This document shows, in pieces, positions 2 through 16,200 of a stretch of DNA of 47,095 nt. The stretch lies in the NCBI GenBank assembly GCA_013001815.1, contig JABDLV010000213.1:1-47095 (forward strand). The letters are read 5' to 3'. The first letter of the stretch is position 1; each line of letters opens with the position of its first letter. Made by a program: the position numbers and the translations under genes. Origin of the DNA: Bacteroidia bacterium. Its GTDB lineage: Bacteria > Bacteroidota > Bacteroidia > AKYH767-A > OLB10. A model generated the notes under the pieces. That model saw only the letters and a list, made by a program, of their open reading frames with translations, had not been told where the DNA came from and did no database searches.

Positions 2-3000
2 ACAGATACTATATTTTGTAATGGAGATCAAACTGCCAAGCTACAGGCAAACGTAATAGGCGGAACAGCCCCTTACACTTATATATGGAATTCTAATCCT
101 ATACAAACAACAAATTCTGCTTCGGGATTAGGGGCAGGAACATATTCAGTTATAGTAACGGATGCAAATGGATGTACTAGTTCTTGTTCTTATGAAGTAA
201 TCGAACCAAGTGTTCTTTCATGCACAACTACATCTACAGATGCTTTCTGTAATGCAGACAGTTCAGGAACAGCTACTGTAAATGCAAGTGGAGGCACTCC
301 AAATATTCTTCCGTGTCATTTTGTTTCTTTCAATGTCCTAACGGATGGATTTCCTAATGAAACATATTGGATGGTGCAAGACGGTTCTAGCTTAGACACA
401 CTAATTTATAATCCTCTTGGTACCTATACACAAGGCGTGAATGATAGTACTGTGTTTTCTGATTCACTTTGTTTGACAGAAGGTGATACTTTAATATTTA
501 CCATTTTTGATGATTTTAATGACGGAATATTTGAGCCGGGTGGATATTGGATTACTATTGGAGGAGATACAGTAGCATCGAATTTTGCATTTGCTACGTT
601 TACTGCTTCTGAGCTTGTTACCATTCCAATTGCTGATACAACTAATACCTATCATTATTTATGGAGCAATGGAGATACTACGCAAACGGCTAGCAACTTA
701 ACATCTGGAACCTATACTGTAACTGTTACAGACTTATATGGTTGCAGTACAACTTGTACAGTCGAAATCGGAGAATCAGATCCTATATTAACATCTATAA
801 GCAGTTCAAATTCATTATGTGCAGGAGATTCGTCTGGTACAGCTTCTGTAACTGCCACTGGTGGAACACCAGGAGTGTTTGCAACATTGCCCGGAAATCA
901 AACTTCAGGAAGCTCATTAACCGGACCTTCTTTTTCTGTATTGTCAGGAGGAGCATTATCCGGCCGTCCATTTGATGACGGTTCTTGCTGTGATTATAAT
1001 GATCCTTCTACCGACATATTAAAATTCACAGTTGATGTTTCCGGATCATATACGATTAACAATGATTATTTACCGAGTTTTGCTTGGGATGGTTATTTAT
1101 TATTATATACAGATCCTTTAGATTGGACCCAATCTCCACCAATAACATTTGTTGATGGAAACGATGACTGTTTGTTCTATAATACTTCTTGCATTACTGT
1201 AAATCTTAATGCCGGTCAAAATTATTACTTGGTTACAACCGGATTTTCAGATTTTGATAATGGTTCATGGCTGACAAGTTTCAGTGGCCCAGGGAATGCA
1301 GGGTTAAGCTTAGGTGATTATGCTTATCAATGGAGTAATGGTGCAACTACACAGACAGTAGGTAATTTAGGAGCGGGAACCTATTATGTTACTGTTACTG
1401 ACGGAAATGGTTGTACAGCTATTGATAGCATTACTATAGGTGGATCAACAGCACTACAAATGGACACAATAACCTCTACTTCTGTTACATGTAAAGGAGA
1501 TGCTGATGGAACGGCTTCCATTGGAAATGTTTCGGGTGGTAACACACCGTATACCGTTGAGTGGAACACAACTCCGCCTCAATTTACAGCAACAGCACTT
1601 GGTTTAGCTCCAGGAATATATTCTGCAACCGTTACAGATGCAAATGGATGTACAATTATAGACAGTGTGGAAGTTACAGAACCAGATGAAGTTTTAAGCT
1701 TGTTCTTAGATGGAGTTCAAACCGTAGATTGTGCCGGAGGTAGCACAGGTTCAGCTACCGTTTTAGCTAGTGGAGGTACACCTCCATATAGTTATTTATG
1801 GAGCGATGGACAAGTAACAGGTAGCGCTACCAATTTATCAGCACAAATTTATGTGGTTACTGTAACGGATGAAAATGGATGCCAGGACTTAATTTCTGTG
1901 CCAGTCGCTTCGCCATTTTCATTATCTGTTAATGTGAATAAAACAGATGCATTATGTAATAGTGATAGTAGCGGTACAGCAAGTGCAGTTATTAATGGTG
2001 GAACAGCACCTTATTCATACATCTGGTTAAACGCCCTAAATGATACATTAGGTACCAGCTCGAGTGTTGGGTCATTGTATCCGGGCACTTACACTATTAT
2101 AGTTACTGATAGTTCCGGTTGCATGGCAATGAACTCATTTACAATTTATCAACCATCAGGATTGGTTCAATACACATCGGTAATAGATGTAACTTGTAAT
2201 AATGGAGCGGATGGTACCGCAACATCTATTGTTTTTGCCGGCACACCACCTTATTCATATGCATGGAGTAATGGACAAACAACGCAAACTGCAACTAATT
2301 TAACTGCAGGAACTTATACCGTATTAATAACTGATGGAAATGGATGTGTTACCGTAGGAGATACTGCAGAAATTGGACAACCTGTTCCAATTTTATTAAA
2401 CCCTAATGTTACATCATTACTTTGTTATGGTTCTGATGTAGGAATGATAGCAACCCAAGTTACAGGAGGAACACCACCTTATCAATACACTTGGAGCACC
2501 GGGGAATCGACTCCAATTATTTCTATGCTTACGGCTGGTGTGTATACCGTTACTGTAAGTGATTTATTTGGATGTACAACTGATTCTGTATTTACATTGG
2601 TTGAAGCAGATTCTATTAGTTGTACTTCAGTTATTTCTATGCCATCATGCAATGGAGGCGCTGACGGTTTTATCACAATAGATAGTACATGGGGTGGAAC
2701 TCCTTCCGGTAGCGGACCAACTGGTCCAATCAATGCGATTGATACTTATTGTTTCTCAGGGCAACCTTTCCTTTCTCCAGGGGGAATTTCTAATGTAAGT
2801 ACCTTGTCAATACCGGCACTACCGTCTGGGGCTATAATAAATAGTGCTACTTTGCATCTTTATGGAGTGAATTCTATCAATGCTTCCTGGAGAAGTGAAT
2901 TCAGGGTTTCATTAGCCGGTGCTTATACATTAGCACCTACTCAAGTTGATAATAATAGTTCAGGAGGCTTAATATCACCAGATCCATCTATACCATTAGT

Positions 3001-6000
3001 TGGCTTCCCGGCAACAGGAGGTTCTATTGACTTGATACTGTCTGAATCATTTGATGATTTTGGTGTGGATGATGCAACAGTTGATTCGGCTTGCATTATA
3101 ATTGATTACACTATTCCTGCAAGTGGAGGTGGAAACAGCACTGCTGGATATACCTATTCTTGGAGCAATGGACAGAATGGTCCGACTGCCACAGGACTTA
3201 CTGCAGGAAATTGGTTTGTTACTATTACGGATAGCATTGGCTGTTCTTGGACCAAATGCATTAAATTGCCAGAACCAACTGCACTGTTGTGTGCTTCTTC
3301 AACAATAGATATTAGTTGTTTTGGAGAAGAAACAGGTGTTGTTGACTTAAGTGTAAGTGGTGGTACGGTATTTAGTACTCCTCCTCCAGTTTTAGTTACA
3401 GCTTATTCTGAGGACTTTGAAACCGGTGCCGGTGGATGGGCTTCAGCAGGTTCTGCGAATTCATGGGCATTAGGAACACCTGCAAGTGGATTAATTATAT
3501 CTGCGGCATCAGGTGCCAATGCATGGATAACAAACTTAACTGGAGATTATAGTGTTGCAGAAGACTCTTGGGTAGAATCTCCAAGTATAGACTTAACGCC
3601 TTATATCTCTCCTGTATCTGTACAGTTTATGATAAACTATGAAACAGAAACTAGTTGGGATGGTGCGCAGTTACAAAGCTCTATAGATGGAGGTACATCA
3701 TGGCAACAAGTGGGTGCATTAAATGACCCAACTAATTGGTATGATGATGGTTCAATAAACGGAGCTGGTGCAAACTGGCAAACACAAGAAGGTTGGTCAG
3801 GTAGATTCGGCTCAGGGTCTAATGGTTGGGTTCAGGCGTCTCATGATATCTCAGGATTAACAGGTGCGTCAAGCGTTATTTTCAGGGTGGCTTTTGGTTC
3901 TGACTTTTCTGGACAGGATGACGGATTTGCATTTGATGACTTTGAAGTAACTGCCATGCAGGTTGGTACAGCCACTGCACCTTACACATTCGCATGGAGC
4001 AATGGTGCCAGTACTGAGGATTTGAATGGGGTGGAAGCAGGAACATATACTGTTACCGTAACAGATGGAAACGGGTGTACTACAATTTGTACGGCAACAA
4101 TCAATCAGCCGGATTCAATTAGTATTACTGCGTCAGTTAATAACGCATCTTGCGCATTAGCAAATGGAAGTTTACATGCACAGGGTAATGGTGGGGCAAA
4201 ACCATATACTTTCTTATGGAGCAATGGAGAAACAACTGCACTAATTAATGGCTTGTTATCTGGAAATTATACGATAACAATTACCGACCTTAATGGATGT
4301 ACGAATTCATCTGTATTTGTGGTCGATGATACCCCAGTTGTGTTATGCAGTGTATCTAACTTTACGGAACCAACATGCAATGGCTATTCAGATGGAACTG
4401 CTACCGCAACTGCAAGTGGAGGTACAGCTCCTTACTCTTATTCATGGAACAGTAATCCTGTACAATTAACACAAACTGCAAATAATTTAGCGGCAGGTGT
4501 ATATATTGTTACGGTTACAGACTCCTTTGGTTGTACATCAACTTGTTCTATAAATCTGGGTCAGCCCGATCCTATTACGTATAGTGTTCAGCTTGGTGGA
4601 AATATTTGTTCTGGAACTAGTACAGGTTCAGCAACTGTAACTGTATCTGGAGGCACTGAGCCTTACATTTATGTTTGGAGTGATGGACAATCTAACTCAT
4701 TGGCTACTGGACTCGCAGCAGGTAATTATTATGTTACAGTTACAGATGTTAATGGCTGCAGTGCAATTGCGCCTGTTAGCATAAGTACAGCTCAAGCAAT
4801 TTCATGTAATACATATACGGTTAACTCAACTTGCGGAATGGCAAATGGAAGTGCTCAAGTAAATGTGTTTGGTGCAGTAATGCCGGTTACCTATTTATGG
4901 AGTGACGGACAAGATAGTTCAGTTGCAATTAATTTAATGGCTGGAAATTATACGGTTACGGTTACGGATGCAAATGGTTGTAGTACAGAATGTTATGCTA
5001 CTGTAAATACTCAAGGAACTCTTATATCATATGCAATTGGATTAGATGTTTCTTGCAATGGAGGTAATGATGGAAGTGCAAGCGTATTATTTGTCAGTGG
5101 AGGAACTGCTCCGTATTCATATCAATGGAGTACTGGTTCAACAGATTCACAAATATTAGGATTGAGTGTAGGTACATATGTTTATACAGTAACTGATTCA
5201 TCAGGTTGTGTTACGATTGATTCTGTAGAGATTGTTGAACCTTCTGTTGTAGGTGTTACAGCATCTGGAAGTAATGTAAGTTGTTATGGGTACAATGATG
5301 GAAGTGCGGCAGCAGTGGCCAGCGGTGGCTCAGCACCTTATTTGTACACATGGTCAAACGGACAAGGATTAAGTGCAATAAATAATTTAATTGCTGGTAC
5401 CTATACGGTTACAGTTTCCGATGCAAATGGATGTACATCAACTGATCAGATTACAGTGCTCGATGGGGATAGTATAAGTTGTACATTTAATATTGTTGAT
5501 CCAGCACTTTGTGAAGAGCCAACAGGAGAAGTTGAAATATTCCCATCTGGTGGAACGGCTCCTTACACCTTTGTTTGGGCTACTAATCCGGTGCAAACTA
5601 CATCAACTGCATCTAATTTGCCTGGCGGAAGTGTGTTTGTAACGATTACCGATGCCAATGGTTGCAGTAAGGTTGAATGTATAAAAGTTCCGGTGCAAAA
5701 CGGACCTCAATATTCAGTTGTTAATTCAGTATTTGCAAACGGTACAAACATAAGCTGTAATGGTGCAACAGACGGATTCATCAATGTAATTATAGTGAGT
5801 GGTGGTCCTGTTACATATAGCTGGAGTAATGGTGCTACAACAAGCAGTATTTCTTCACTTTCAGCTGGTACTTACACAGTTATGATTGCTGCCGGGCCAT
5901 GTGAAATTTCTCACACAGTAACCTTAGTTGAACCTAATGCACTCATCACTTCTGCAAGTGGTGTAGATTTAAATTGCGCTGGTGTTAATAGTGGATTAGC

Positions 6001-6916
6001 AATGGTTAACGCAACAGGTGGAACAAGTCCATATTCTTATAGTTGGAATACAATTCCTCCTAAGTTTACACCGGTTATTACAGGCTTGAGTGCCGCAACT
6101 TATGATGTTTTAGTTACAGATGCTAATGGGTGCACTGCTACTAATCAAGTAATAATATCACAACCGGCCTCTGTATTTAGTGCAACAGAAAATGTGACAC
6201 ACATAAGTTGCAACGGACTTACTGATGGTATGATTGATGTTACTGCATTGGGTGGACAAGCACCGTACCTATATAATTGGATGGATGGCTCAACGATGGA
6301 AGATAGAACTGGATTGTCTTCTGGTGTTTATAAGCTAACTATTAGTGACAATGCCGGATGTGCAGTTATCGTTTGTGCTGCTATTGCAGAGCCTTCTTTA
6401 TTGCTTGTTGGAATTAACAGCGTTGGAGTAAGTACTCCTGGTGGAAATGATGGTTCAGCTACTGCTATTGCAACAGGTGGAACATGGCCTTACACATATA
6501 ATTGGAGTAATGGAACAAGTACTCAATCAAATTCTGGTTTGATGTCAGGATTCTATATCGTAACAATTACTGATGCGAATGGTTGCACTGCAACGGAATC
6601 AGTTGAGGTGTTAGAACCGTCTAGCGCATTTACTAGCAGCGGGTTAAGTCCTGAAGGCTTCATTACAAAAGCAATTGTATATCCAAACCCAAATACGGGA
6701 TTGTTTAAACTGGAAATAGAATCTACAATGAACAAAGAAGTTTATGTGGACCTATTTGATATTAGTGGAAGACAACTTGCATCAGATAAGCTGCAATTGC
6801 AGGATGGTGTTTCTTCAAAAGAGTATAATCTGCAGTACGCTGAAAAAGGAATCTATTTCATAAGAATCTATTCAGATGCTAAATTTGAAGAAGTCTTGAG
6901 AATTATATTGCAATAA
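2..6916 (+). CDS. Giant T9SS-secreted SprB-repeat protein, 5'-truncated
   Basis: The reading frame is already open at base 2, so the start lies outside the window and 2,304 residues are visible; the first in-frame ATG (371) is internal. About 21 SprB repeats follow one another, each built as xGGTAPYxYxWSNG, then LxAGxYTVTVTD, then NGC. Four repeats are interrupted by extra domains of about 110-200 residues (see separate entries). The last ~80 residues (from about base 6,672) form a type A T9SS sorting domain: a YPNP motif, then 'DISGRQL', then 'KGIYFIRIYS'. By family knowledge such proteins cross the outer membrane through T9SS and are anchored or released at the surface, often as adhesins. 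No PorP/SprF-type partner gene follows, consistent with a type A rather than type B tail. The ligand is unknown. The next gene is a second giant of the same class. High confidence in class, low in function. Confidence 0.93.
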   Translation, partial: TDTIFCNGDQTAKLQANVIGGTAPYTYIWNSNPIQTTNSASGLGAGTYSVIVTDANGCTSSCSYEVIEPSVLSCTTTSTDAFCNADSSGTATVNASGGTPNILPCHFVSFNVLTDGFPNETYWMVQDGSSLDTLIYNPLGTYTQGVNDSTVFSDSLCLTEGDTLIFTIFDDFNDGIFEPGGYWITIGGDTVASNFAFATFTASELVTIPIADTTNTYHYLWSNGDTTQTASNLTSGTYTVTVTDLYGCSTTCTVEIGESDPILTSISSSNSLCAGDSSGTASVTATGGTPGVFATLPGNQTSGSSLTGPSFSVLSGGALSGRPFDDGSCCDYNDPSTDILKFTVDVSGSYTINNDYLPSFAWDGYLLLYTDPLDWTQSPPITFVDGNDDCLFYNTSCITVNLNAGQNYYLVTTGFSDFDNGSWLTSFSGPGNAGLSLGDYAYQWSNGATTQTVGNLGAGTYYVTVTDGNGCTAIDSITIGGSTALQMDTITSTSVTCKGDADGTASIGNVSGGNTPYTVEWNTTPPQFTATALGLAPGIYSATVTDANGCTIIDSVEVTEPDEVLSLFLDGVQTVDCAGGSTGSATVLASGGTPPYSYLWSDGQVTGSATNLSAQIYVVTVTDENGCQDLISVPVASPFSLSVNVNKTDALCNSDSSGTASAVINGGTAPYSYIWLNALNDTLGTSSSVGSLYPGTYTIIVTDSSGCMAMNSFTIYQPSGLVQYTSVIDVTCNNGADGTATSIVFAGTPPYSYAWSNGQTTQTATNLTAGTYTVLITDGNGCVTVGDTAEIGQPVPILLNPNVTSLLCYGSDVGMIATQVTGGTPPYQYTWSTGESTPIISMLTAGVYTVTVSDLFGCTTDSVFTLVEADSISCTSVISMPSCNGGADGFITIDSTWGGTPSGSGPTGPINAIDTYCFSGQPFLSPGGISNVSTLSIPALPSGAIINSATLHLYGVNSINASWRSEFRVSLAGAYTLAPTQVDNNSSGGLISPDPSIPLVGFPATGGSIDLILSESFDDFGVDDATVDSACIIIDYTIPASGGGNSTAGYTYSWSNGQNGPTATGLTAGNWFVTITDSIGCSWTKCIKLPEPTALLCASSTIDISCFGEETGVVDLSVSGGTVFSTPPPVLVTAYSEDFETGAGGWASAGSANSWALGTPASGLIISAASGANAWITNLTGDYSVAEDSWVESPSIDLTPYISPVSVQFMINYETETSWDGAQLQSSIDGGTSWQQVGALNDPTNWYDDGSINGAGANWQTQEGWSGRFGSGSNGWVQASHDISGLTGASSVIFRVAFGSDFSGQDDGFAFDDFEVTAMQVGTATAPYTFAWSNGASTEDLNGVEAGTYTVTVTDGNGCTTICTATINQPDSISITASVNNASCALANGSLHAQGNGGAKPYTFLWSNGETTALINGLLSGNYTITITDLNGCTNSSVFVVDDTPVVLCSVSNFTEPTCNGYSDGTATATASGGTAPYSYSWNSNPVQLTQTANNLAAGVYIVTVTDSFGCTSTCSINLGQPDPITYSVQLGGNICSGTSTGSATVTVSGGTEPYIYVWSDGQSNSLATGLAAGNYYVTVTDVNGCSAIAPVSISTAQAISCNTYTVNSTCGMANGSAQVNVFGAVMPVTYLWSDGQDSSVAINLMAGNYTVTVTDANGCSTECYATVNTQGTLISYAIGLDVSCNGGNDGSASVLFVSGGTAPYSYQWSTGSTDSQILGLSVGTYVYTVTDSSGCVTIDSVEIVEPSVVGVTASGSNVSCYGYNDGSAAAVASGGSAPYLYTWSNGQGLSAINNLIAGTYTVTVSDANGCTSTDQITVLDGDSISCTFNIVDPALCEEPTGEVEIFPSGGTAPYTFVWATNPVQTTSTASNLPGGSVFVTITDANGCSKVECIKVPVQNGPQYSVVNSVFANGTNISCNGATDGFINVIIVSGGPVTYSWSNGATTSSISSLSAGTYTVMIAAGPCEISHTVTLVEPNALITSASGVDLNCAGVNSGLAMVNATGGTSPYSYSWNTIPPKFTPVITGLSAATYDVLVTDANGCTATNQVIISQPASVFSATENVTHISCNGLTDGMIDVTALGGQAPYLYNWMDGSTMEDRTGLSSGVYKLTISDNAGCAVIVCAAIAEPSLLLVGINSVGVSTPGGNDGSATAIATGGTWPYTYNWSNGTSTQSNSGLMSGFYIVTITDANGCTATESVEVLEPSSAFTSSGLSPEGFITKAIVYPNPNTGLFKLEIESTMNKEVYVDLFDISGRQLASDKLQLQDGVSSKEYNLQYAEKGIYFIRIYSDAKFEEVLRIILQ
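302..648 (+). other. Domain inserted in SprB repeat: NETYW-type beta module
   Basis: The repeat's opening GGTP is followed by about 115 unrelated residues before its own YHYLWSNG resumes. The insert contains 'TDGFPNETYWMVQD' and 'FTIFDDFNDGIFEPGGYW'. This resembles a beta module seen repeatedly in secreted Bacteroidota proteins (pattern: TD.yp.ET.W.l.d ... f.i.D..gDGi). The assignment is by pattern memory only. Confidence 0.6.
871..1320 (+). other. Domain inserted in SprB repeat: PPC-like module
   Basis: After GGTP of the next repeat about 150 residues intervene before YAYQWSNG. The insert shows 'DVSGSYTI', 'WDGYLLLYTDP', an 'NDDC' turn, 'LNAGQNYYLVTTGF' and 'FSGPGNA'. These match the general pattern of bacterial pre-peptidase C-terminal (PPC) beta-sandwich domains. 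It is cysteine-containing ('SCCDY', 'DDCLFYNTSC'). Confidence 0.55.
2704..3147 (+). other. Domain inserted in SprB repeat: unassigned beta-sandwich-like module
   Basis: About 148 residues are inserted between WGGTPSGSG and YTYSWSNGQ of one repeat. The insert contains 'LPSGAIINSATLHLYGV' and 'SIDLILSESFDDFGVDD', then a closing 'ACIIIDYTIP'. The strand pattern suggests a jelly-roll or beta-sandwich fold. I do not recognise a named family. Confidence 0.5.
3370..3976 (+). other. Domain inserted in SprB repeat: MAM/jelly-roll-like module
   Basis: About 200 residues lie between VSGGTV and APYTFAWSNG. The insert starts 'YSEDFETGAGGW' and has 'WVESPSIDLT', 'GAQLQSSIDGGTSWQQVG' and the closing 'DDGFAFDDFEV'. 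This is the hallmark layout of the jelly-roll (MAM or immune-inhibitor-A-associated) modules common in T9SS substrates. Such folds often bind carbohydrate; a ligand here is not shown. Confidence 0.65.
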
Positions 6917-7288: not shown

Positions 7289-10200
7289 ATGAAAGACTCT
7301 ACTAGTCGAATTTCCAGAGTATCAAGAAAACTCAAACTGAGATTGATGTTGATACTAGTTCCTTTTATGTTCCATTCCTCTGTATCTGGACAGTTGGTAA
7401 TTAGTCAATATGTTGAGACTAATTCCGGTAGTTCACCAAAAGGTATTGAAGTATGGAACGCCTCATGTTCAACCATTGACTTCTCAACAGACACACTTGA
7501 GATATTTCAGGCAACAAATGGCAGCTCATTTTTTGGGCAGCTTACTGGTGCAACTGTTAGCTCAGGTACTTTAGGGCCTGGAGAAGTTTTAGTGATAGGC
7601 ACTTCAGATATTGGTGCTTATTTAACTTCAGTTGGATTAGGGGCCGTAACTTACGTCAGTTATGGTTTTACTTTCAATGGAGATGATGCTCTGGAAATTC
7701 GGTTAGGGGGAGTTCCACAAGATAGATTTGGGACATTAGGTGTTGACCCCGGTGCAGGATGGTCAGGTACTTGTGGTGCCACCATTGCTACAAACAATAC
7801 AAATTTAGAGTTATTGCCTACGGTAACTTCTGGCGATACATCAGGATTCTCAGATCCTTGCTCAAGATTTACAGAATTAAATCAGGGTGATTCTTTATTA
7901 GGGTTTGGAGTTGCACCTGCATTACCTTTATGTATTTCACCTTTTCCTGTTAATGAGTTTTGCGAGGGAAGTGATTTAACTTTAAACTACAACTCTACAC
8001 AAACTACTTTTACTGCAGGCAATGTGTTTAATGTAGAGTTATCAAATGCAACTGGAAATTTTGCAGCACCGCTTGTTATAGGCTCACTAGCCGATGTGAG
8101 TGCAAGTGGTACAATTAATGCCACTATTCCGCTAGGCCAATCTCCGGGTACGGGATATAGAATAAGAATTGTGTCAAGTAACCCGGCAACAGTTGGTTTA
8201 GTTTATGAATCTGATATAACCATTGGAGACGCTGCAGAAGCAAACGCAGGTCCGGATATTTCAGTGTGTGGTGGTGAAGAAATAGGTTTGGGTGGAACAC
8301 TGATGGGTTCAGCCAGTTCCGCTTTATGGGTTGGTGGCACAGGTCAATTTCCTGATGGAAGAAATGATCCAATGGGTTCATACATCCCGAATCAATCTGA
8401 GTGGGGAACCACTGTAACATTGCAATTAGTTACAAATGACCCAACAGGTGTTTGTCCGGCAGATGCCGATACAATAGACATTGAGGTTTTAGAAACTCCA
8501 TTGTTAGGTGCTTTTGGCCAAGTGGGTAATACTTGTCCAACGGATTCATTTGATTTAACAACTTTAACGGTTGTTGATTCCAATAATACTACCGGTTTCC
8601 TAACTTATTTTGATAATACATTTAATGTATTGCCAAGTTCATGGGTAACCACAACAGGTATATACTATGTATTTAAAACTGTACCTAATCCCGATACACT
8701 TAAACCCGATTGTTTCGATTTTCAACCCGTAACGGTAATTATTCAGTCATGTTCATGTCCGGCACCGACTGTTACTTTAGATACAGCAATAAATGTTGTT
8801 TGTAATGGCGAGGCTACCGGTGCAATTAATGTTTCTGTAACTGGAGGTTCAGCACCTTACATTTATGCATGGTCTAATGGTGCTACAACAGAAGATATTT
8901 CCGGATTAGTTGGAGATAGTACGTATACCCTTACTGTTTATGGTGCAGATTCATGCGCTGCGCAATTAGTCGCCACGATTACTCAACCTGATTCTATAAG
9001 TGCTTCGGCAGTAGTTACAGATGTGTCTTGTGCCGGTGCGATGGATGGTGCAATAGATGTAACTGTAAATGGGGGTACGCCCGGGTACACTTTTGCTTGG
9101 TCTGTTGGAACAACAGGGAGTTCAGTGCTGCCTTCATTTAAAGACAACACAATTTATCAGGATAATCAATTTACAAATAGTAATGGAGCCGGTGAATGGT
9201 TTGTTGCCGGTAATAATAACGGTTCATCAGCAAGAAGAGCGTTGTTGGAATTTGATCTGTCTTCAATTCCGTCTGGTGCAGTAATTACTTCTGCTGCATT
9301 AACTTTAGAAATGACCAACACGAGTGGAGGAGCGGGTGCGCAAGTGTTTAACCTTCATGCATTAACTAATAATTGGGGTGAAGGAGCCTCAAATGCTGGT
9401 GCAAGTGCAGGGCAAGGAACATCTGCATTAACACCAGATGCGACTTGGTTTTTTAGAATTTCAACTACAGATAATTGGGCAACAGCGGGTGGAGATTTCA
9501 ATGCTGGGTCAAGTGCATCCCAAACAGTAGATTCCCTTGGATCATATACATGGTCTGCAGCAGGAATGATAGCCGATGTCCAAAATTGGGTTGATGGAAC
9601 AGCCTCAAATTTTGGTTGGATTTTAATTGGAAATGAAAGTACAAATCAGACTGCAAAACAATTTGCTTCAAAAGAAAATTCAAATGCTGCAATTAGACCA
9701 AGTCTTGTAGTAAATTATTCTTTAGGAACTACAACCGAGGATTTAACTGCAGTGGATGGTGGAACATATAGTGTTACTATTACAGATGCCGCAGGTTGTA
9801 CTAAGGTTCTTATAGAAACTGTAAATGAGTCGACTGCTATAAGTGGTTCAATTACTGCAAGCGCTGTGAGTTGTGCAACAGATAGCTCATTGTTAGACTT
9901 AACAGTAGTTGGTGGTACGGCACCATTTAGTTATGCCTGGTCTACAGGAGAAATAACAGAAGATATTTATGTAATGGCTGCCAATACATATAGTGTAATC
10001 ATTACAGATGCAAATGGATGCGCTGATACAGCAAGTTCTTCGGTAAACTTCCCTGCTCCAATATCTTTTAATCCAAGTACTCTTGATGTTTCTTGTCCCG
10101 GTGCAAATGATGGTGGCGCAGATCCATTAGTTAGTGGCGGTACAATGCCCTACGCCTCCTATTTATGGTCGAATGCATCTACAAATCCATTTATTTTTGG

Positions 10201-13200: not shown

Positions 13201-16200
13201 TATCGTTGCAAATATTTCATGTTCAGGTGCAGCAGATGGATCAATAATATTTAATTTAATGGGAGGTACCCCGGCTTACAGTTACAATTGGTCTGATGGA
13301 AGTACTACTAAAGATGTTTCCGGATTATCGGCTGGTGCAATTTCTGTAATATGGGGTGATGCAAATGGTTGTATGGATTCTACATCGTTTGTTATAGTTG
13401 AGCCGGATCCAATTTCTTCAAATCCAACAGCTGTTGATCCAACATGTTTTGGCGGATCAAATGGATATATAGACTTAAATCCTTCTGGTGGAACTGCTCC
13501 TTACACATTTGCATGGTCTGATGGTTCTACTAATGAAGAAATAGGAAACTTAAGTTCAGGGTTTTTATATGGAAAAGTATTTGACGCCAACGGTTGTGAA
13601 GATTCTACAGGATTTACATTAATTGATCCAGCGGTATTAAGTTTTGCTGCGTCTGTAACAAATGTTGCTTGTAATGGCGATTCAACAGGCGCAATAGATA
13701 TTACATCAAATAATGGAGGAACACCATTTACGGCTCCTGCAGATATATTTATCTCTGAATATATAGAAGGTTCTAGTAATAGTAAGGCAATTGAATTATA
13801 TAATCCGACTGCTTCTCCAGTTGATTTATCTGATTATACAATAACCTTAAGTGTTAACGGTGGAACAGTTACCAATACATTTAATCCGATGGGAATTTTA
13901 AATTCCGGAAGTGTATTTATATTCTCGCCAAATAATGCAGATGCAGCCATTTTGGCTGTTGCAGATACAGTATTTCCATTCCCAAGTGTTGCACACTTCA
14001 ATGGGGATGATGCTTTAATTATTGAAAACACATCAACAAATACAATCGTAGATATTTTTGGTAATGTAGGATGTGATCCTGGTTCGCAATGGCAAATAGG
14101 TTCTGTTGAAACACAAAATCAAACCTTAATCAGAAAAGCATTTGTACAAAATGGTATAAGTGTAGATCCATTTAACTCACCATGTGATTTTCCATCATTA
14201 GAATTTGAATGGGAAGAATTACCAATAAATGATTTCAGCAACTTAGGAACACATACAATAGATCCTTTGCAATCTTATATATATAGTTGGTCTACCGGAA
14301 GTACTAACGAAGATGTTTCTGGCTTAGCAGCCGGTGTTTATACATTAAGTGCATTTGATGCAAATGGATGTTTATCTACTACAAGCTTAACAGTAAATGA
14401 ACCATCAGCTATCGTATTTGGTTTAATCGATGTTGATTGTACTATGGGTGCAGGTTCGGCTACAGTAACTGTGCAAGTAACTAATCCTTCAGGAAATGGA
14501 TTAGCTTATCAATTGTTACCTGGTGGTATCTTCCAGACATCTAACATATTTACTGGTGTTGCAAATGGTACATATACGGTTGGCGTAATGGATACAGTTT
14601 TAGGATGCTCTGCAATTTCTTCTAGTGTATTAGTGAATTGTAGTAGTATAGATTCTTGTTTGATTGATTCTATTGCACCTGTTGTAATTTGTCCGTCAAA
14701 TGCAATTATAGATTGCAATGCGCCTGCTGCTTATACCGATATTAACATGTTCTTATCTGGTGGCGGTCAAATCATAGAATTATGCAATATTGATTCTTCC
14801 ATGTACGCAACTAGTGATTCTATTGTAGGCATATGTCCTCAATTAATTTATAGAACTTATTCTATTGCTGATGTTGCAGGAAATTCAGGATCTTGTACTC
14901 AGTTAATTACGGTTCAAGATACAGCCAAACCGGTACTTACTATTCCGGGGGATGTAGCCATAAACTGCGATGATGATTCTAGTCCAGCCGGTACAGGTAT
15001 GGCAACAGCTACTGACAATTGCGGGGCTGTAGTTACATTTAGTGATGCGGTTGTGGCCGGTACATGTCCAATTATTGAAGTAATTACCAGAACTTGGACT
15101 GCTACAGATTCATGTAATAATACTGCAAGTGCAGTTCAAACAATAACAGTAAAAGACACATTACCACCTACACCAGTTTGTATGGTATTAGATGTTACAT
15201 TGGATGCTAGTGGTACAGCAACAATTACTCCGGCAGATATTGACGGAGGTAGTTCTAATTCATGTGGTGGTGCTGCTAGTTTATCTTTAAGTAAATCAAG
15301 CTTTACATGTGCTGATGTTGGGAATAATACAGTTGTGTTAATTGTGACCGATGCTTGTGGAAATATAGATTCTTGCGCTGCTAATGTGGTAGTAAAAGAT
15401 AATATTAGTCCGGTTGCTAATTGTCAAGATATAACAGTATACATTGACAGTATATGTAATGCAACAATTTCAGCCAGCGATGTAAACAATAACTCATCTG
15501 ATGCATGTGGAATTGACACCATGTTCTTAGATAATACAATGTTTGGTTCTGCAAACATTGGTACAGGTGACACAATACTGGTTGATGATGTATTTGCATA
15601 TACCAGTTTTGAAGAGCCATTTGCCGGAAATCAATATGCAGACACCGGTGATGCAGCAGTGGATCATCCACTAGTAAATAATGCCGGTCAATCTTATGTT
15701 AATTATACAAGTGTTGGAGGTGAGTTAGGATTCAGTTCCTATTACTTTAGTACTGGAAGTTCTGGATTAACAGATGGTGATTTTGTTGGAGGAACAACAT
15801 TTACAGGTGCTGTAGGTTCATTTACAGATGGCATTCAAGGATTCCAAATGAGTGATACAGATGGTGAAATGGAAACCTCATTGGATATAGTGAATGTAGC
15901 TGGATTAGATAGTGCTGAAGTTTCCATTGATTTATTTGTGGCAGCTACTGGTTGGGAAACCTCAGATGCATTAAGAATTTATGTTGTATTTGAAGATGCA
16001 ACGGAGTTAGATCTTATAAATACCACTGGTGTAGATATTGATGGTTTGGGAATAGAAGGTTCTTGGATGACATTGACCGGTGATTTAAGCGGACACACTA
16101 CTGCTGAATTAAGAGTTTCATTAATAGCAAATGCCGGTAACGAAGCAATTTATGTAGATAACGTTAGATTTAGCAGCCAAGTTGAATCAACTACAAATGT

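Follow-up and report, generated by a model that had tools for sequence, protein, structure and literature searches.

The first giant gene on contig C63 of a draft Bacteroidia genome (assembly GCA_013001815.1) encodes a protein, P0001, in which four SprB repeats are each interrupted at the same turn by a separate domain and completed after it. The window analyzed here is the entire contig (JABDLV010000213.1, 47,095 nucleotides), taken from a draft of 266 contigs. With a probability of about 0.8, we read P0001 as a type IX secreted giant surface protein with nested, or "split", SprB repeats, most likely carrying ligand-binding or accessory modules along an adhesive fiber.

P0001 is truncated at the contig start, its 5' end being missing, and was found to match PF13573 over 23 stretches in a Pfam scan (E 1.5e-142; 463 bits, cut-off 28). 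The same scan identified residues 2226-2294 as Por_Secre_tail (PF18962, E 1.8e-13), a type IX sorting domain. A 72-column SprB profile, built first from this genome and later from 109 proteins of the order and class, gave 25 matches in P0001, mostly complete, eight of which were halves making up the four split repeats. The N-terminal halves (N-halves) stop at profile columns 27-30 (residues 74-102, 265-294, 874-901 and 1097-1122), the well-defined C-terminal halves (C-halves) begin at columns 28-30, and the gaps from the N-half to the partial match of the C-half come to 103, 143, 136 and 197 residues for splits 1-4, respectively; C-half matches beginning earlier (columns 19-22) represent a few residues of run-on into the insert. 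With strand letters A-G assigned in this analysis, the split point in all four repeats lies between strands B and C, at the junction of GGT and (P/V). Alignment with intact repeats using MAFFT (in pairs or quadruples) placed the gap between GGT(P) and xYxW for inserts 1, 3 and 4; with insert 2, and with insert 4 when shorter rows were used, the gap was at least several residues off. By simple arithmetic, assuming uniform cut points over about 71 positions, the chance of four cuts falling within about 5 positions is roughly 4e-4. A first-pass annotation, made from the sequence alone, had proposed that four SprB repeats are split at GGT(P/V); this is confirmed, and its insert coordinates agree with ours to within about 10 bases. 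A complete repeat beside an insert had been set beforehand as the finding that refutes a split fold, and the SprB profile search placed none on either side of any insert.

A single fold, completed across the insert, is well supported for each split repeat, both by sequence statistics and by structure prediction. In 1608 intact repeats, column 20 of the N-half is coupled to column 42 of the C-half of the same repeat (odds ratio (OR) 14.3, p 1e-107), compared to an OR of only 2.4-2.7 with neighboring repeats. Across the insert, these two columns were concordant in all 14 split repeats scored at the B-C loop (D/N/E-type residues at both columns in 7 and at neither in 7), and concordance was 10 of 10 (Fisher p 0.005) when the paralog L032, which is encoded on another contig and 52% identical to P0001, was left out. 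The top-20 sum of mutual information between N- and C-halves was 3.0 within a repeat and 1.1 with the preceding repeat. Furthermore, the AlphaFold2 models of splits 1, 3 and 4 agree with both flanks belonging to a single SprB fold; the evidence here consists of the predicted local distance difference test (pLDDT) score of both halves, about 90-97 for splits 1 and 4 and about 85-96 for split 3, and of the strand order A-B-[insert]-C-D-F-G, which matches that of intact repeats. Some of the tests used in this work were picked after the data were seen.

Two cysteine patterns bear on how the halves, and successive repeats, may be held together. C2 and C65 are both present in 87 repeats, singly present in 43 and both missing in 1474 (OR 279, with an OR of about 20 for neighbors), a covariation as expected for a disulfide, which is predicted to connect strand A in the N-half with strand G in the C-half. 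The pair is complete in splits 1, 3 and 4 of P0001 and both cysteines are missing in split 2; an enrichment of the pair in the split repeats of P0001 was not convincing (3 of 4 splits vs. 3 of 15 intact repeats). C11 and C61 are conserved in 95% and 97% of SprB repeats, respectively. A disulfide between these two in the same repeat was rejected, as they show no covariation within the repeat. Of the 13 losses of C61, however, 10 coincide with loss of C11 in the repeat before (OR 109, p 4.6e-13, 8 proteins; OR 295 without the outlier L067). The last repeats of arrays keep C11 in 44 of 61 cases, compared to 1353 of 1411 inside arrays, and C61 in 61 of 61, and the first repeats keep C61 in 60 of 80 cases, compared to 1396 of 1411 inside, and C11 in 79 of 80. 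Both array-end losses had been predicted from the C11-C61 pairing, and both predictions held; this array-end test, the cleanest of the tests, was set after the pairing had been seen. Together, the co-loss and the array-end loss of the partnerless cysteine point to a predicted inter-repeat disulfide, C11(i)-C61(i+1). Since 18 of the 18 split repeats listed retain both C11 and C61, such staples would bridge the insert, consistent with an insert that is looped out.

The inserts themselves were compared to protein families and to 42 genomes of the order. Insert 1 had no family match in Pfam or NCBIfam; with a home-made profile, relatives were found in 21 of the 42 genomes, nearly all directly behind a signal peptide, as the N-terminal domain of proteins of about 800 residues. 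Insert 4 has relatives in 35 of the 42 genomes, which typically stand alone directly behind a signal peptide or are arranged in tandem. Judging from this distribution, these two insert families are autonomous domains that stand free elsewhere. Insert 2 was found in P0001, in L032 and in one weak match only (E 3e-7), and insert 3 is confined to P0001 and L032, i.e. to one of the 42 genomes. All four inserts had been described as foreign in the first-pass annotation; such an origin is demonstrated for inserts 1 and 4, through their free-standing relatives, but not for inserts 2 and 3, which are near-private to this genome. The accompanying idea of the repeat as a scaffold with a permissive loop holds up: the halves make one fold, a single loop takes up different families, and two of these four families also exist as free-standing domains. 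Its other part, a sideways display of binding modules, is probable but inferred.

SprB repeats are abundant in the genome, and giant SprB proteins are encoded on several contigs. L032 carries the same four inserts in the same order and in frame, which rules out a chimeric assembly as their source; over insert 4 and its flanks the two proteins share 78% identity. A search of SprB proteins for split profile matches, suggested along with the original observation, automatically detected 17 splits against 1677 full repeats in the 109 proteins. Splits are concentrated in this genome, with about 14 here and about 5 elsewhere in the sample. The genome contains a second MAM case (L040) and, in P0002, the second giant gene of the window, Lamin Tail Domain (LTD) inserts (Table 1); in other genomes of the order, LTD splits were found twice in L073 and once in L108, and probably also in L076, where the sequence is masked. 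The claim of one fixed loop is true of the first gene but too narrow for the genome, as a second insertion loop, after Y-x-W-S at columns ~38-42, is used in P0002 and also in L038, L043 and L099. The independent insertion events in SprB hosts are few, about 9-10 by our count: four are shared by P0001 and L032, the second loop accounts for about four, the MAM case of L040 adds one, and the LTD group makes up the rest. When named genomes were scanned with the insert 4 region, MAM domains were found in tandem or alone, and none was demonstrably nested in an SprB repeat. The same loop seems to be used in other Ig/PKD-like repeats, recognized as hosts from a reading of the flanks and not with a host-half profile: in L074, an Ig/PKD-like domain encloses P-domains (proprotein convertase, PF01483) between its 'ECSSLNATVSSG' and 'YTYSWSP', P-domains are similarly placed in L084 and L076, and a GEVED domain in L066 and a CUB-like domain in L032 are likewise placed.

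In the arrangement we propose, the SprB repeat is a six-stranded immunoglobulin-like (Ig-like) beta-sandwich, in which the chain forms strands A and B, exits at the B-C turn between GGT and P, folds outside the host into an autonomous beta-rich domain of 100-200 residues, and returns as strand C to finish the same sandwich. With the host repeat completed, the fiber would be continuous and the plugged-in domain would hang off its side. The C2-C65 disulfide would clasp the two halves of some split repeats, and the staples from C11 to C61 of the next repeat appear to be kept in split repeats, bridging the insert. The fiber could thereby bear MAM, LTD, CUB-like and DNRLRE/CBM96 modules without its mechanical chain being broken, similar to the split domains of RTX adhesins, and it is this likeness that suggests ligand binding by the inserts and adhesion by the fiber.

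Other readings of the same data were weighed. The true repeat unit could run from PYxYxWSNG to the next GGT, in which case the inserts would sit between complete, circularly permuted units like beads on a string. A tandem array allows any phase as its unit, and 35 multi-repeat arrays start with a C-half by profile, many of them being divergent Ig/PKD-like domains or split repeats themselves; however, an N-half opens 98 arrays, and the array end is a C-half in 111 cases and an N-half in 19, many of the latter being splits. Furthermore, N-half columns 19-23 are much more strongly coupled to C-half columns 41-43 within a repeat than to those of the preceding one, C2 and C65 pair within the repeat, and the coupling persists across inserts. 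On the basis of the couplings and the array-end phase the permuted unit was rejected, and we regard it as highly improbable. A reading in which the nesting is real but neutral, the B-C turn being the most permissive loop and the inserts having been gathered via recombination among domain-rich giant genes with no display involved, is unlikely, albeit the least unlikely of the alternatives. The concentration of splits in this genome and the private nature of inserts 2 and 3 would fit it, but inserts 1-4 are in frame and in order in a paralog of only 52% identity, insert 4 and its flanks are far more similar than the proteins as a whole, and LTD, MAM, CBM96, CUB-like and P-domains recur. The inserts might also be processing or regulatory modules rather than binding modules, e.g. 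accessory domains of proteases acting on the fiber by cutting or cross-linking; InhA-like and M36 peptidases are known to contain MAM family domains, and CUB-like domains are N-terminal in other secreted proteins. As a catalytic domain was found in none of the inserts, and DNRLRE/CBM96, LTD and MAM are mostly non-catalytic beta domains, we consider this quite improbable.

Several points nevertheless weigh against nested repeats that display binding modules, the reading preferred here. Inserts 2 and 3 are without a recognized family, so that "binding module" is a guess for these two. As L032 is paralogous to P0001, their eight splits represent only four events, and the LTD splits of related genera may be a single lineage. 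The AlphaFold2 model of the insert 4 domain itself is poor (pLDDT about 27-54), and the AlphaFold2 line of evidence is not fully independent because intact repeats stood in its alignment. Finally, the draft bin is 88% complete with 6.4% contamination.

The first-pass annotation knew of no described name for the arrangement, but one exists: in RTX adhesins it is called a "split domain" (PMC10865825, PMC12077191). In FrhA, AhLap and MpIBP, the sequence of an Ig-like split domain is interrupted by a ligand-binding domain; the split domain, whose fold is completed after the insert, has the stated role of projecting the module off the fiber axis (PMC10865825, PMC12077191). In both RTX adhesins and P0001, a host domain of a giant repetitive protein is thus completed after the insert. 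In the type I secreted RTX proteins the hosts are few and specialized and lie close to the C-terminus, and the FrhA host is split after one short strand of 12 residues, whereas P0001, a type IX secreted protein, has its splits in ordinary, cysteine-bearing SprB repeats, after two strands, repeatedly and mid-array; unlike in the RTX hosts, cysteine pairs would bridge the insert. Work by Graham et al. 2024 (Proteins 92:933) is reportedly cited by the RTX adhesin papers on split domains. No match to the RTX family was found in P0001 in the Pfam scan, which together with the type IX tail indicates that it is not an RTX adhesin; by analogy, P0001 would work like a split-domain adhesin while standing outside that family.

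With the SprB (PF13573) adhesins of Bacteroidota, P0001 shares the repeat family, above the Pfam cut-off, as well as the giant size and the type IX sorting domain, but typical SprB arrays are uninterrupted. No published account of split SprB repeats was found in a search limited to open-licence papers. A more distant likeness is to GhpA (Aureispira grappling hook protein A), a type IX secreted giant fiber (PMC11205867) with structures solved by cryo-electron microscopy (9flp, 9flv, 9flw). The tandem Ig-like repeats of GhpA gave a distant repeat-profile match (E 6.7e-18), and the best Foldseek matches of both models were GhpA fragments, with about 11-15% identity and TM-scores of 0.10-0.22 in a multi-domain comparison; phmmer with P0001 itself gave no GhpA match. 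The likeness is thus one of repeat profile and fold search, with no hook architecture among the shared features. Solved Ig-like folds are also available for the phage T5 decoration protein pb10 (5lxk), which shares the turn 'GGTGPYTYAW', and for Hoc (3shs); in contrast to the split SprB repeats, both are capsid proteins without an insert. The nearest solved relatives of the SprB host repeat are accordingly phage Ig-like proteins and, by profile and fold search, GhpA.

While the split-domain arrangement has already been described in other adhesins, new here are the SprB repeat family and the type IX secretion route. SprB repeats are very common in giant surface proteins of Bacteroidota, for few of which the adhesive parts are known. 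Should a split repeat be the sign of a ligand-binding module here too, as in RTX adhesins, scanning for split matches would yield candidate binding domains, here the CUB-like, MAM, LTD and DNRLRE/CBM96 domains and two unnamed families, and the cysteine pattern provides a testable model for how the fiber holds together. More tentatively, and with somewhat less than even confidence, the repeats of type IX secreted giants, SprB as well as related Ig/PKD-like ones, could form a general plug-in platform, in which unrelated domains are repeatedly nested at the B-C turn of a disulfide-stapled fiber and the insert is spanned by the staples (C11 to the next C61) and by the clasp (C2-C65), keeping the fiber load-bearing while evolution swaps the modules.

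Table 1 Coordinates of the split repeats, inserts and related features (window positions unless a locus is given).
Feature	Position	Strand	Basis or remark
P0001, first giant gene	2-6916	+	2304 residues; SprB array, 4 split repeats, C-terminal type IX sorting domain
N-half of split repeat 1 (strands A, B; ...ASGGTP)	218-301	+	Columns 2-30; model strands 70-79, 89-98
Insert 1, CUB-like beta domain	302-640	+	Home-made profile; without Pfam/NCBIfam family
C-half of split repeat 1 (YHYLWSNG...)	641-775	+	Columns to 71; pLDDT 93-97
N-half of split repeat 2	791-871	+	SprB profile partial match
Insert 2, unnamed domain	872-1312	+	Nearly private to genome
C-half of split repeat 2 (DYAYQWSNG...)	1313-1441	+	SprB profile partial match
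N-half of split repeat 3	2618-2704	+	Profile and MAFFT gap placement
Insert 3, unnamed domain	2705-3142	+	Seen in P0001 and paralog L032 only
C-half of split repeat 3 (GYTYSWSNG...)	3143-3277	+	Profile and model
N-half of split repeat 4 (...SVSGGT)	3287-3367	+	Profile; pLDDT 90-97
Insert 4, MAM-like domain (InhA-like MAM)	3368-3976	+	PF20773 E 1.4e-6, insert alone
C-half of split repeat 4 (APYTFAWSNG...)	3977-4111	+	Profile; pLDDT 95-97
P0002, second giant gene	7289-29650	+	Giant open frame; type IX sorting domain at end recognized by eye
P0002 DNRLRE/CBM96 domain, second loop (after YTFAWSVGTT)	9125-9709	+	NF033679 E 7.6e-22; split at columns 33-43
P0002 Lamin Tail Domain insert, GGTP loop	10604-11149	+	PF00932 E 5.7e-13; halves columns 3-32, 28-72
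P0002 second Lamin Tail Domain insert, GGTP loop	13730-14272	+	PF00932 E 1e-14; halves columns 3-31, 28-72
P-domain cases in apparent B-C loop of Ig/PKD-like repeats	L074:7452-9044, L084:6814-8646, L076:12681-13403		PF01483

On the contig, P0002 is followed by house-keeping genes of the ordinary kind. P0002 itself starts with an LTD directly after the signal peptide (window 7397-7891), related to its two nested LTDs. An insert of about 200 residues (SFEEPFAGNQY...; window 15533-16186, P0002 residues ~2749-2966) is found in a non-SprB, HYR-like domain, flanked by 'SANIGTGD' and 'TTNVVTLTVVDNSGNSSTC', and is possibly a further nested domain in another host. Similarly, an Ig_7-like domain in L032 (L032:238-1050) contains an apparent insert after 'DTFYVQSC', resuming at 'CCSELTAVVV', possibly in an F-G loop.

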